Source: Blautia sp.
GTDB lineage: Bacteria; Bacillota; Clostridia; Lachnospirales; Lachnospiraceae
NCBI GenBank assembly: GCA_023667395.1
Contig: JAMPAC010000003.1
Coordinates: 81,119-145,118 of the forward strand
Reading direction: 5' to 3'
DNA: 64,000 nt
Shown piece after piece: positions 27,294 through 51,920 of this stretch (its first letter is position 1; the number at the start of each line of letters is the position of its first letter). A model generated the notes under the pieces. It did not search any database and had not been told where the DNA came from. It was given only the letters and a program-made list of their open reading frames with translations. A program made the position numbers and the translations under genes.

Positions 27294-27594
27294 AATTTAT
27301 TCGCTTTTGGGCATTGCCATGAGAGGACGGAATCTGGTCAGCGGCGAATACCAGACTCTGGAGGCAGTGAAGAAAGGTTCCGCCATGCTGGTGGTCATTG
27401 CGGATGACGCGTCCGATAACACCAAAAAGTTGTTTTCTGACAAATGTTCTTATTACGAAGTCCCGGTTTTCAGGTACGGAACAAAGGAAAGCCTGGGACG
27501 GGCGATCGGAAAAGACTTAAGGTCGTCGGTATGCGTATGCGACGCGGGACTTGCGGACACGATCATCAAACTGCTGGAAGAAGAGTTAAATTAA
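27274..27594 (+). CDS. ylxQ: YlxQ-like L7Ae family ribosome-associated protein
   Basis: About 106 residues with the L7Ae/L30e fold: KIYSLLGIAMRGRNLVSGEYQTLEAVKKGSAMLVVIADDASDNTKKLFSDKCSYYEVPVFRYGTKESLGRAIG. ATG 27274 (MSLRQNKIY) has AAAAGGAG upstream and overlaps ylxR by 20 bp. The frame is open to 27241. Members bind kink-turn RNA, but their exact role in bacteria is not settled. Its stop codon abuts the first copy of the structured repeat element. Confidence 0.93.
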   Translation: MSLRQNKIYSLLGIAMRGRNLVSGEYQTLEAVKKGSAMLVVIADDASDNTKKLFSDKCSYYEVPVFRYGTKESLGRAIGKDLRSSVCVCDAGLADTIIKLLEEELN

Positions 27595-27722
27595 AACAGT
27601 CTCGGAGCGGAAACGCCCGAAAGGAAATTGCAGCTGCGGATTGAGCAGATGAAATTTTCTTTCAGAGCAGGGGCGTTGGAGCGCAGAGACCGGAACAAGC
27701 TACCATATATGGTAGCTGGAAT
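27594..27722 (+). repeat. Structured intergenic element, copy A (upstream of infB)
   Basis: It runs from AAACAGTCTCGG (27594) to CTGGAAT (27722). Outer pairing is GTCTC (27599-27603) with GAGAC (27686-27690). Inner pairing is AACGCCC (27612-27618) with GGGCGTT (27671-27677). A separate 20-bp perfect palindrome lies at 27698-27717, between GGAAC and TGGAAT. The element fills the ylxQ-infB gap and ends just before the infB ribosome site. Related copies are at 32579, 32728, 51860 and (minus) 51396-51293. Confidence 0.8.
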
Positions 27723-27734
27723 GGAGGACAGGGA

Positions 27735-30700
27735 ATGGCGAAAATAAAGGTGCATGAACTCGCTAAGGAATTGGATAAGCAAAGTAAGGACATTATAAGT
27801 TTTTTGCAAAAGAAAGGCATTGAGGCAAAGGTTGCCCAGAGTTCCATAGAGGAGGAAGCAGCGGAGATGGTGCGCAGGGAGTTTAGCGGCAGTGGAGCAG
27901 GGAAAGCCGAGGTGAAAGCGGCAAAAGCGGAGGCAGGGACAGGGAAAGCCGAAGCGAAAGCGGAGGCAGAGACAGGGAAAGCCGAAGCGAAAACAGCGAA
28001 AGCGGAGGCAGGGACAGGGAAAGCCGAAGTGAAAGCGGCAAAAGCGGAGGCAGAGACAGGGAAAGCCGAAGTGAAAGCGGCAAAAGCGGAGGCAGGGACA
28101 GGGAAAGCTGAAGTGAAAGCGGCAAAAGCGGAGCCTGAGACAGGAAAAGCCGAGGGAAAAGCGGCAAAAGTGGAGCCTGAGACGGGAAAAGCAGGGATGG
28201 CGGCAAAAGCGGAGCCCAAAACAGCAGACACAGGGGCGAAAGCGGAAAAGCCGGAGTCCAGGTCGGCAAATGCCGAAGCCAAAACTCAGAAAACGGCAGG
28301 CGCGCAGGCGGAAAAGCCGGGGGCAGCCAGAAAGAATAAACCGGACAACAGAACAAATGAGGATGCGCAGAAGAAGAAAAAGTCCAAGATCATCTTTGTC
28401 AGTAATCCCCAGAATTCCAAAATGTCCGGACAGGGAAGATCCCAGGGCGGGCAGAACAGGCAGAATAACGGGTATAATGATCGTGGCAGGGCGCAGGGTC
28501 CCGTGCGTCCGATCAAGCCGCTGACTCCGCCGTCCCCTACACCCAGCGTGCAGATGGTACCCTCCAGACCCGCCCAGCCCAGCAGGCAGAATAACCAGCA
28601 CCAGGGCACTGCCAATGAGGCGGAAAAGCAGCAGAACAGGCAGGATAGACCTGTCAGACAGGACAGATCTGACAGACAGGACAGACCTGAAAGGCAGGAG
28701 CGGACGGACAGATCTGACAGACAGGACAGACCTGCAAGAGACAACCGTGGTTCACAGGAGGGGCGTCGTGACGGCAGACCCCAGGGTGGAAACAGCCAGG
28801 GCGGCAGACCGGAACGCGGACAGTATCAGGGTAGAGGAGGCGCAGGCTCAAATGGCAGACCTCAGGGAGACAGGCAGAACGGATTTCAGAGAAATGGCAG
28901 GCCGGGTTCTGAAAGCGGTTCGGGCGATCGCCGCGGTCCGGGCGCTGGCGCAGGGGGCGGCCGCAATTTTAACGGCAGTCCAAGAGATAACAGAGGCAGC
29001 GGCGGACAGGGAGCCGGTTCCAGAGATTCAAGGGGCGGCAAGGGCTTTGCGGGAGAAGCTCCGGCGAAAGAAATGGAAAAGAGGCGTGACGACGACAAGC
29101 GCCGCGCAAATAATCAGGAGAGGGATAAACGATCCAGGAAAGACCACATTTATGAAGAGGATGAAGCGGTAAGAAGTAAGCCCGGCCGGTTCATCAAACC
29201 TGAAAAGAAGAAAGAAGAGAAAGCGGAGGAAGTGATCAAGGTGATCACTCTGCCTGAGATGATCACGATCAAGGATCTGGCTGACAAGATGAAATTGCAA
29301 CCTTCCGCCATTGTGAAGAAACTGTTTCTGGAGGGTAAGATCGTAACTGTCAACCAGGAGATCTCCTACGAGGACGCGGAGAATATCGCTATGGAGTACG
29401 ATATCCTCTGTGAGAAAGAAGTCAAGGTAGATATTATCGAGGAACTGTTAAAGGAAGAAGAGGACGCGGAGGAGTCCATGGTGGAGAGACCGCCCGTTAT
29501 CTGCGTTATGGGACATGTTGACCATGGTAAAACTTCCCTGCTCGACTCCATCCGTAAGACCAATGTGACCGATAAGGAGGCAGGCGGTATTACGCAGCAT
29601 ATTGGTGCGTATACTGTCAATGTAAAAGGCAGGAAGATCACTTTCCTGGATACACCCGGGCACGAGGCATTTACCGCCATGCGTATGCGCGGCGCCAATT
29701 CCACGGATATCGCGATCCTTGTGGTAGCGGCGGACGATGGCGTTATGCCCCAGACGATTGAGGCGATCAACCATGCCAAGGCGGCAGGCATCGAGATCAT
29801 TGTGGCAGTGAATAAGATCGACAAGCCCTCCGCGAATATCGACCGCGTAAAACAGGAACTGACGGAGTATGAACTGATACCCGTTGACTGGGGCGGGACC
29901 ACGGAGTTTGTGCCCGTATCCGCGAAGTCAGGGGAGGGTATTGAGAATCTGCTGGAAACCATTTTGCTGACTGCGGATATCCTGGAACTGAAAGCGAATC
30001 CTGACAGGCGCGCCAGAGGTCTGGTGATCGAGGCGGAACTGGATAAGGGACGCGGCCCTGTGGCTACCGTCCTGGTGCAGAAAGGTACGCTCCATGTGGG
30101 CGACTTTATTTCCGCGGGATCATGCCATGGCAAGGTACGCGCCATGATCGATGACAAGGGCAGGAGGGTGAAAGAGGCAACCCCTTCCACTCCCGTGGAG
30201 ATACTGGGTCTTTCCGATGTGCCCAGCGCCGGCGAGGTATTCCTTGCCCACGACAATGACAAGACAGCGAAAAATTACGCCGAGACCTATCTGGCGCAGA
30301 ATAAAGAGAAGATGCTTGAAGATACTAAGACCAAGATGTCCCTGGACGATCTGTTCTCCCAGATTCAGGAAGGTAATCTAAAGGAACTGTGCCTGATCGT
30401 AAAGGCGGACGTACAGGGAAGTGTGGAGGCTGTAAAGCAGTCGCTGCTGAAGCTGACCAACGAGGAAGTGGTAGTGAAATGTATCCACGGCGGCGTGGGC
30501 GCCATCAACGAGTCCGATGTGGTGCTGGCCAGCGCTTCCAATGCGATTATCATTGGTTTCAATGTGCGTCTTGACGCTACCGCGAAAGCGACCGCCGAGC
30601 GGGAGGGCGTGGATATCAGGATGTATAAGGTCATCTATCAGGCTATCGAGGATATTGAGGCAGCCATGAAAGGTATGCTGGATCCCGTCTTTGAGGAAAA

Positions 30701-30986
30701 AGTGATCGGCCATGCCGAGGTGCGCCAGATATTCAAGGCGTCCGCAATCGGTAACATTGCCGGTTCCTATGTGCTGGACGGCACATTCCAGAGAGGCTGC
30801 AAGATCCGCATTACCCGTGAGGGAGAACAGATTTACGAGGGCGCTCTTGCTTCCCTGAAGCGTTTCAAGGATGATGTGAAAGAAGTGAGAGCGGGCTTTG
30901 AATGCGGTCTTGTGTTTGAAGGATTTGACCAGATGCAGGAACTGGATATCGTGGAAGCCTATATCATGGTGGAGGTACCACGCTGA
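27735..30986 (+). CDS. infB: Translation initiation factor IF-2 with expanded N-terminal region
   Basis: A 1083-residue IF-2. After the N-terminal IF2N helix-turn ([28 protein letters not shown]), residues about 53-157 are eight degenerate 14-residue repeats of the type [14 protein letters not shown]. Residues about 300-445 are rich in Arg, Asp and Gly. The core has a second IF2N ([22 protein letters not shown], near 510), the GTPase motifs GHVDHGKT near 593, DTPGHEAF and NKID, and the fMet-tRNA-binding C-terminal domains. It positions initiator tRNA on the 30S subunit. ATG 27735 has GGAGG. Confidence 0.98.
27893..28206 (+). repeat. In-frame 42-bp degenerate repeats in infB
   Basis: About eight units of 33-42 bp encode [18 protein letters not shown] peptides rich in Lys, Ala and Glu. 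Neighbouring units are nearly identical at DNA level, which suggests recent expansion by slippage or unequal recombination. Confidence 0.9.
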
Positions 30987-31067
30987 AAAGATTTTCTAAA
31001 GCACGAGAATACCGTGCTTAAGAAAATCTAAGTTTCAGCGGAAAGAATCGCCGGGGGCGATTCTTTC
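30983..31067 (+). promoter_or_regulatory. Two large hairpins between infB and rbfA
   Basis: The first hairpin (30983-31038) starts inside the infB stop codon and pairs CTGAAA, AGATTTTCT and AAGCACG with matching 3' segments. The second (31041-31052 with 31056-31067) is a 12-bp perfect stem, GAAAGAATCGCC type, with a 3-base loop. Neither has a T tract, so processing, attenuation or mRNA-stability roles are more likely than simple termination. Confidence 0.6.
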
Positions 31068-51535: not shown

Positions 51536-51564
51536 CTCTTTTTTGGCTTATCTTAAAAAAGTTA

Positions 51565-51596
51565 TTGACAACCAACAGACGTTAGCATATACTAAC
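51565..51596 (+). promoter_or_regulatory. feoA promoter with overlapping DtxR-like dyad
   Basis: TTGACA (51565-51570), 17-bp spacer, TATACT (51588-51593). A dyad GTTAG-N6-CTAAC (51581-51596) overlaps the -10 region, consistent with repression by the neighbouring DtxR-family protein. Confidence 0.8.
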
Positions 51597-51645
51597 TATA
51601 TAGAAATGAAAACCATTCTCAAATACATAGGAAGGAGATGTTGGT

Positions 51646-51855
51646 ATGCCTTTGACAATGGCAAGGAACGGAGAGAGCAACATCATTAAGAAAGTAGGCG
51701 GCAGGGAAGAGACAAGGAAGTTTCTGGAGAAGCTGGGTTTTGTTGCAGGCGGCGCGGTCACTGTCATATCCGAGGTGGGCGGCAACGTCATTGTCAATAT
51801 CAAAGATTCCCGCATCGCCATCGGCAGGGAAATGGCCAATAAGATCATTGTATGA
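51646..51855 (+). CDS. feoA: FeoA family protein (first copy)
   Basis: The 69-residue SH3-like protein (GGREETRKFLEKLGFVAGGAVTVISEVGGNVIVNIKDSRIAIGREMANKIIV) matches FeoA. It is the less basic of two FeoA copies. FeoA is thought to act with the cytoplasmic side of FeoB. AAGGAG precedes ATG 51646. It is first in the feoA-feoA-feoB operon. Confidence 0.9.
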   Translation: MPLTMARNGESNIIKKVGGREETRKFLEKLGFVAGGAVTVISEVGGNVIVNIKDSRIAIGREMANKIIV

Positions 51856-51859
51856 CAAA

Positions 51860-51920
51860 AAACAGTTTCAGAACGGAAATTCTTTCCCCGCCAGGGGCAT
51901 TGGAGTGCAGAAACGGAACT
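51860..51920 (+). repeat. Structured intergenic element, copy D (short, between feoA genes)
   Basis: It starts 5 bp after the feoA stop. Outer pairing is GTTTC (51865-51869) with GAAAC (51910-51914), a compensated change from GTCTC/GAGAC. Inner pairing is AAT (51878-51880) with ATT (51899-51901), capped by CCCC/GGGG (51886-51889 with 51894-51897). The flanks AACGG and GGAGTG..ACGGAACT match the longer copies. Confidence 0.75.

Follow-up and report, generated by a model that had tools for sequence, protein, structure and literature searches.

A modular hairpin repeat family upstream of ribosome-binding sites in a Lachnospiraceae genome

Hairpins that are known to stabilise mRNAs are individual structures and are not known to form a homologous repeat family, and REP and BIME sequences are imperfect palindromes, often clustered, that lie in spacers. 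Here we describe a family of folded repeats found in a 64,000-nucleotide (nt) stretch of Blautia sp. contig JAMPAC010000003.1 (assembly GCA_023667395.1, positions 81,119 to 145,118), hereafter the window, and throughout its source genome (G000; 4.43 Mb, 94% complete). The elements resemble REP/BIME sequences, which go with RAYT (IS200-like) transposases, in being imperfect palindromes, often clustered, in spacers. They are also like the cis-regulatory leaders in Rfam (riboswitches and ribosomal protein leaders) in that they are structured, covary and stand before the Shine–Dalgarno sequence (SD). The nearest known kind is the BOX-type interspersed repeat. In the excerpted text of its published description, the pneumococcal BOX (and likewise RUP and SPRITE) resembles the present family in being modular and tightly folded, with optional inner modules, at tens of loci in a few related species; BOX is over-represented between convergently transcribed genes, with 60.8% on the leading strand (PMC3049150).

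A preliminary description of the window had claimed five copies of the element, A to E, and all five are present and matched by a covariance model, R1 (E values 9.7e-9 to 2.6e-28). R1 was built from six copies that include A, C and E, so the scores of these three follow by construction; B and D, which stand outside the training set, are the only independent finds in the window (Table 1). Across the genome, R1 gave at least 138 matches at E ≤ 0.1 among the best 150 of 1064 candidates scored. A search of 100 sources (the window and 99 fetched loci) gave 174 matches at E ≤ 0.01, and the best 150 of these, plus five weaker matches included manually and less one row that overlapped another, make at least 154 non-overlapping copies in 111 clusters. 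This number is a lower bound: it leaves out further weak rows, mostly opposite-strand matches inside known copies and also weak copies such as L039:4515-4634, and locus L138 was not covered. The clusters comprise 78 single copies, 25 doubles, 6 triples and 2 quadruples, and copy lengths fall into classes near 55, 100 and 120 nt. Many short homologous copies at unrelated loci, folded and with modular size classes, are what is found in small interspersed repeats. Exact matches to the 5′ motif AAACAGTYTC number 122 in the genome, compared with 33 for the reversed control, and the exact tail GGWACTGGAATRGGAG occurs 44 times, compared with none. By comparison of the lists, 15 of these 44 tails adjoin none of the 154 counted copies; inspected by eye, all 15 proved to be tail-only, decayed or cut forms with a start codon after each.

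Each unit consists of a 5′ AAACAG edge, a rod-like hairpin (P1, two G-N-A/G-N-A internal loops, P2, an optional P3 and optional extra hairpins) and a 3′ tail, CGGAAC-TGGAAT. The shared consensus given in the preliminary description holds in general but was slightly idealised: copy A reads GAGCGG and copy E GATCGG for GAACGG, and E ends in AGAACCGGAAT. A 3′ motif written after the copies had been seen, GTTGGARNGNARARACNGGAAC, has three occurrences at ≤3 mismatches, compared with 0.11 expected. P1 occurs as GTCTC/GAGAC, GCCTC/GAGGC, GCTTC/GAAGC and GCATC/GATGC. The alignment of copies from relatives, A5, which was the source of a second model, R2, contains nine opposite-strand rows. With these removed (105 distinct rows), 91.3% of cells are paired, 30 of 31 pairs show double changes, and there are 295 double-change cells, compared with 67.7 (maximum 91) in 200 shuffles; with the nine rows kept, the values are 91.6% and 30 pairs, with 308 double-change cells compared with 66 (0 of 500 shuffles). 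Slid versions of the alignment pair at only 40–53%. For 141 distinct rows from the source genome itself, 92.8% of cells are paired, with 407 double-change cells compared with 96.3. In long copies, the two 3 × 3 internal loops keep their outer G and A (92–100% where printed in 118 rows of the source genome, 86–96% in 85 rows from relatives); the 3′ middle base is free and the 5′ middle base is mostly G, otherwise A. These internal loops are presumably sheared G·A motifs. Predicted folds exceeded those of shuffled sequences in four of the six copies tested (z −4.0 to −5.6): A, C and E, and at locus L008 a copy of 97 nt. The covariation supports the rod as the predicted RNA structure.

We measured placement by looking, within 110 nt downstream, for an SD-like motif together with a start codon that opens 40 codons or more; this replaced open reading frame (ORF) calls, whose starts extended through the elements. 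In sense, both were present in 107 of 111 clusters, compared with 7 of 111 in antisense and 19.1% of 2220 random positions in the same loci on one strand. Of the four other clusters, one (L106) is at a contig end, and three, L041, L053 and the one at truB, have a start codon 10–22 nt downstream and no SD by the pattern used. The 3′ edge, GAGAC-GGAAC-TGGAAT, typically runs into AGGAGG. Distances to the start codon are bimodal, mostly 14–28 or 34–57 nt, and the second group mostly carries an extra hairpin between GGAAC and the tail; this hairpin goes together with an extra C before GGAAC (both in 28 copies, neither in 99, mixed in 6 and 5, with 16 of 154 unparsed). Upstream, 107 of 111 clusters have a same-strand ORF (80 codons or longer) whose end is no more than 400 nt away, and in 27 it is no more than 5 nt away. 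Placement independent of gene starts, as expected of a BOX-like repeat, was thus not what we found, and this sets the family apart from BOX as characterised in the published excerpts. The elements also differ from REP/RAYT systems in standing upstream of SDs in one orientation, with no Y1 transposase found in G000. With their sense position before genes and compensatory stem changes they look like cis-regulatory leaders, but they differ from those in Rfam in having no Rfam match and no SD sequestration evident from the fold, and in preceding more than 100 genes per genome in arrays of up to four copies. A stable hairpin immediately 5′ of the SD, in 27 clusters right after a stop codon, may be likened to the mRNA-stabilising hairpins of 5′ and intercistronic regions.

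A match to a known RNA family, which would remove the novelty of the element, was not found: Rfam at its gathering threshold gave none in the window and none in 12 other loci. Below threshold, at a loose E value on two stretches, there were only four weak matches, to unrelated families. A partial literature search, of titles and abstract openings, found no description of this repeat family, which does not show that the family is unpublished.

Comparison with a sister species (NALB_7861_4, G061), which has at least 109 R1 matches among the best 150 of 914 candidates, revealed that the elements turn over. Both flanks of 72 of the 111 clusters were in fetched G061 stretches; the comparison used the best 150 of 255 model matches and weaker ones added by hand. 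A copy was present at 54 of these 72 sites; the G061 windows had G061 copies at their centres, which biases the count towards presence. None was found at the other 18, an upper bound on absence, as flank alignments can run into the element (for example at L100) and remnants occur at several sites. A regular expression sorted the 72 sites into 30 full, 16 short, 12 tail remnant and 14 none, but this sorting was too coarse, as it missed visible copies. Fifteen of the 54 best pairs are less than 75% identical, length differences included, compared with a flank median of 92.5%, and the changes at orthologous sites often concern the inner hairpins (P2/P3) or the copy number. Before infB, a single full copy in G000 corresponds to three mini-copies in G061; the feoA leader has a short copy in G000 and a full-length one in G061, and the Uma2 leader in G061 has only a tail remnant, as judged by eye. 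In the reverse direction, both flanks of 59 of 79 G061 clusters lay in fetched G000 sequence, and the gap in G000 was shorter than 75 nt at eight; several of these eight hold tail remnants, one being window 25226–25261, and at least one (L048) arose only from a flank alignment that entered the copy.

The family was found in, and seems confined to, part of one Lachnospiraceae genus (GTDB Acetatifactor-like). Under stricter filters, R1 matched 8 of 61 genomes, all among the 37 of the same genus, and none of the 24 genomes of other families. At E ≤ 0.001, R2 matched 11 of 40 genus genomes: at least 103 matches in G000 (the best 103 of 1741 candidates, all matching), 55 in G019, 47 in G020, 39 in G014, 30 in G021, 19 in G026, 5 in G001, 3 each in G025 and G018, 2 in G011 and 1 in G063. 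The pattern GAGACGGAACTGGAATRGGAG recovered 57 stretches in 11 assemblies from a collection of 84,980 species, and their titles name Lachnospiraceae bacteria, an Acetatifactor sp., ‘Bacterium D16-50’ and uncultured bacteria. The R2 matches in G018 and G011 appear to belong to another family, arranged in the same way (hairpin, GCGAAGCG hairpin, AGGAGG), and the pattern GCGAAGCG-N4-20-AGGAGG occurs 15 times in G018, compared with 2 in the control, and 5 times in G011, compared with 0. At loci L294, L296, L299, L300 and L302 of these genomes, this second, unrelated-looking SD-proximal hairpin repeat reads GCGGAATGAAGC ... TCCGCGAAGCGGA ... AGGAGG, with one example, by eye, before a triose-phosphate-isomerase-like start. 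Two further observations concern loci of G019. L157 (1625–1731) has the same AACAG...CGGAACTGGAATAGGAGG frame around an unrelated inner sequence with a CAACAGCCC/GGGCTGTTG stem. L163 has an element copy with P1 extended into a long stem and a short array of tandem palindromes (GATTCTATTATAGTATTTTGATAATAGAATC-like), which lies in a spacer close to what looks by eye like an electron-transfer-flavoprotein gene.

The genes downstream of the elements are diverse. NCBIfam scans took in 50 of 110 downstream proteins, 13 of which had no family at the thresholds used. The families identified included obgE, yhbY, trkA, murD, choloylglycine hydrolase, rmlA, rmlC, an aminopeptidase, amt, glpK, ybaB, purA, proS, ATP synthase subunit C (below its cut-off), radA, carB, accD, fabF, SCIFF maturase, der, acetolactate synthase, grpE, infB, truB, cobQ, greA, pyrD, cmk and rnfD. 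The idea that the element is tied to translation or iron genes is therefore not supported, because the scanned genes share no function. Among 86 clusters of relatives (some sites were fetched twice, and three at contig ends, L142, L148 and L155, have no downstream ORF), 12 of the 83 with a downstream protein precede orthologues of element-bearing genes of G000, and 10 of these 12 are in the sister species. The tail is present by construction at 57 of 82 relative loci, because these were fetched with a pattern that holds it.

The sequences directly show how the copies are built, where and how often they occur, that they form tandem arrays, and that sister species differ in the content and presence of copies. 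On this basis we think it somewhat probable that the element is a proliferating modular repeat confined to the SD-proximal sense leader or intercistronic spacer, where it would act in cis as a hairpin. In RNA it would fold into a stable hairpin immediately upstream of the ribosome-binding site, the SD lying outside the stem, and it may shield the downstream mRNA from decay, insulate initiation from upstream ribosomes, or both; a ligand switch is not what we envisage. Its spread could occur by recombination or copying anchored on the shared tail and SD, which would explain the single orientation. We tentatively suggest a more specific possibility, that the element docks onto SDs, through tail/SD homology or an enzyme and in sense only, installing a swappable hairpin leader before at least 100 genes. 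The two readings offered in the preliminary description both survive in part. The notion of a cis-acting RNA, with a putative effect on expression, fits the placement and the covarying stems; that of a mobile repeat between genes fits a family that proliferates (about 150 copies, tandem arrays, turnover between sister species), although the mark predicted for such a repeat, antisense or unplaced copies, was looked for in the 111 clusters and not found.

Several observations weigh against a proliferating repeat that acts as a cis hairpin. Neither of the two short copies tested beats shuffles in folding (copy D, z −0.06; a 52-nt copy of L003, z −1.3). The pair counts lean towards the model, because the alignments were fitted to R1. 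Presence is patchy, with 29 of 40 genus genomes lacking an R2 match at E ≤ 0.001. The element is dispensable for orthologous genes, because copies are lost or exchanged between sister species; the truB leader has two copies in G000 and none detected in G061. Maintenance of pairs in place is only moderate: at 20 alignable sites (20 of 72; single copies, at least 85% covered and at least 70% identical, and hence biased to well-conserved sites), 54 of 537 pairs changed, of which 33 still pair (25 by one-sided and 8 by two-sided change) and 21 are broken (18 and 3), while 87 of 789 unpaired positions differ. Clean empty sites, which could speak to the mechanism of spread, were few among the sites compared.

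An unlikely alternative is a selfish miniature element, similar to a miniature inverted-repeat transposable element or to REP/RAYT, that is mobilised in trans by a transposase, with the SD region as its target and effects on expression incidental. Copy number, tandem arrays, patchy species distribution, the many unrelated genes and the sequence differences between species would all suit such an element. However, Y1 transposase (PF01797, the only family searched) was not found in G000, which has the most copies in the genus sample, or in G001, G019, G021 and G025; it occurs in 12 of 41 genus genomes, namely the carriers G014, G020 and G026 and nine others. We recognised no target duplication by eye at a few candidate empty sites, the phage and plasmid collections held no match to copy C, and viral contigs held no exact match to a 19-base tail pattern. 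More doubtful still is a dedicated post-transcriptional regulon, in which a trans-acting RNA-binding protein, for example of the CsrA/Rsm type that reads GGA, would control more than 100 genes. Several GGA motifs adjoin the SD, the G-N-A loops are conserved, and G000 has six CsrA-domain (PF02599) matches, the most in the genus sample. These matches lie on C130 (L313), C40, C143 and C120, three of them on one 31-kb contig, in open frames of 122–209 codons. The scanned target genes share no function, however; in some relatives the tail reads TATAAT, TCTAAA or TTTAAT, without its GGA, and some copies have CGGTAC or CGGCAC instead of CGGAAC. Of 41 genus genomes, 35 contain CsrA, and of the 34 of these also searched with R2, 26 have no element match; conversely, it was not found in G020, a carrier whose assembly is 80% complete. 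Neither Y1 transposase nor CsrA tracks the element across the genus genomes. Least probable is a mutational origin, in which template switching at replication, proposed in the excerpted source to create and maintain RNA hairpins (PMC8794818), makes and repairs the palindromes, so that the covariation would reflect no selection and the family would be neutral spacer debris: stems that vary yet are nearly perfect, and P2/P3 that differ at orthologous sites, agree with this, but most long copies, in other species too, retain the mismatched G-N-A/G-N-A loops, though repair would tend to erase mismatches, which argues against simple palindrome repair, and the sense, SD-adjacent placement is left unexplained.

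The copies in the window are listed in Table 1. The preliminary description had placed all of them after a stop codon or before a start codon on the coding strand; copy E follows no stop codon on its own strand but does lie in the leader of a divergent Uma2 gene. The downstream genes were assigned as infB (TIGR00487) and truB (TIGR00431) by NCBIfam, and as feoA (PF04023) and Uma2 (PF05685); in NCBIfam, the FeoA match was below its cut-off and Uma2 had no match. A perfect palindrome, TAAGAGTGGCTTGCAAGCCACTCTTA, lies at 25190–25215, just upstream of a decayed tail.

Table 1. Parts of the five element copies and of one remnant in the window (SD, Shine–Dalgarno sequence; bits, R1 score).
Feature	Position	Strand	Remarks
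Decayed tail-only remnant (GGAACCGGAATCAAAACTGAAATCAAGAACAGGAGG)	25226..25261	+	upstream of ATG 25268; two full copies at this place in G061
Copy A core: P1 GTCTC/GAGAC, G-N-A internal loops, P2, long P3	27594..27695	+	109.9 bits (training set); infB leader
Copy A first base	27594	+	overlaps last base of TAA stop of L7Ae-family gene
Copy A extra perfect hairpin (AGCTACCATATATGGTAGCT), tail and SD	27696..27727	+	
Copy A tail TGGAAT; SD GGAGG	27717-27722; 27723-27727	+	infB ATG 27735
Copy B core with extra inner hairpin (CAATGTGCC..GGCACAT)	32579..32695	+	49.7 bits (not in training set)
Copy B extra hairpin and tail	32696..32722	+	hairpin TTCCTGCAAGCAGGAA 32700-32715; tail ending GGAACTGGAAT 32712-32722
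Copy C core	32728..32828	+	105.8 bits (training set); tandem to B, truB leader
Copy C tail TGGAATAAGT	32829..32838	+	truB ATG 32839; no SD by pattern used
Copy E tail and SD-like sequence	51283..51298	-	tail CGGAAT 51298-51293; AAGGAG 51288-51283
Copy E core	51299..51396	-	71.1 bits (training set); leader of Uma2-family gene (start codon 51277, -)
Copy D, short form without P3	51860..51919	+	40.3 bits (not in training set); feoA leader
Copy D tail TAAGATAAG and SD AAGGGAG	51920..51935	+	feoA ATG 51942

Small interspersed repeats are often seen as sequences that spacers tolerate. The present family, nearly all in sense and abutting the SD of more than 100 genes, prompts one to ask how ribosome-binding sites can be located by a repeat. 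In sister species, orthologous genes may be preceded by a full, short, tandem or remnant element or by none, and comparing them provides a natural experiment on the gain, exchange and loss of leaders and intercistronic structure.

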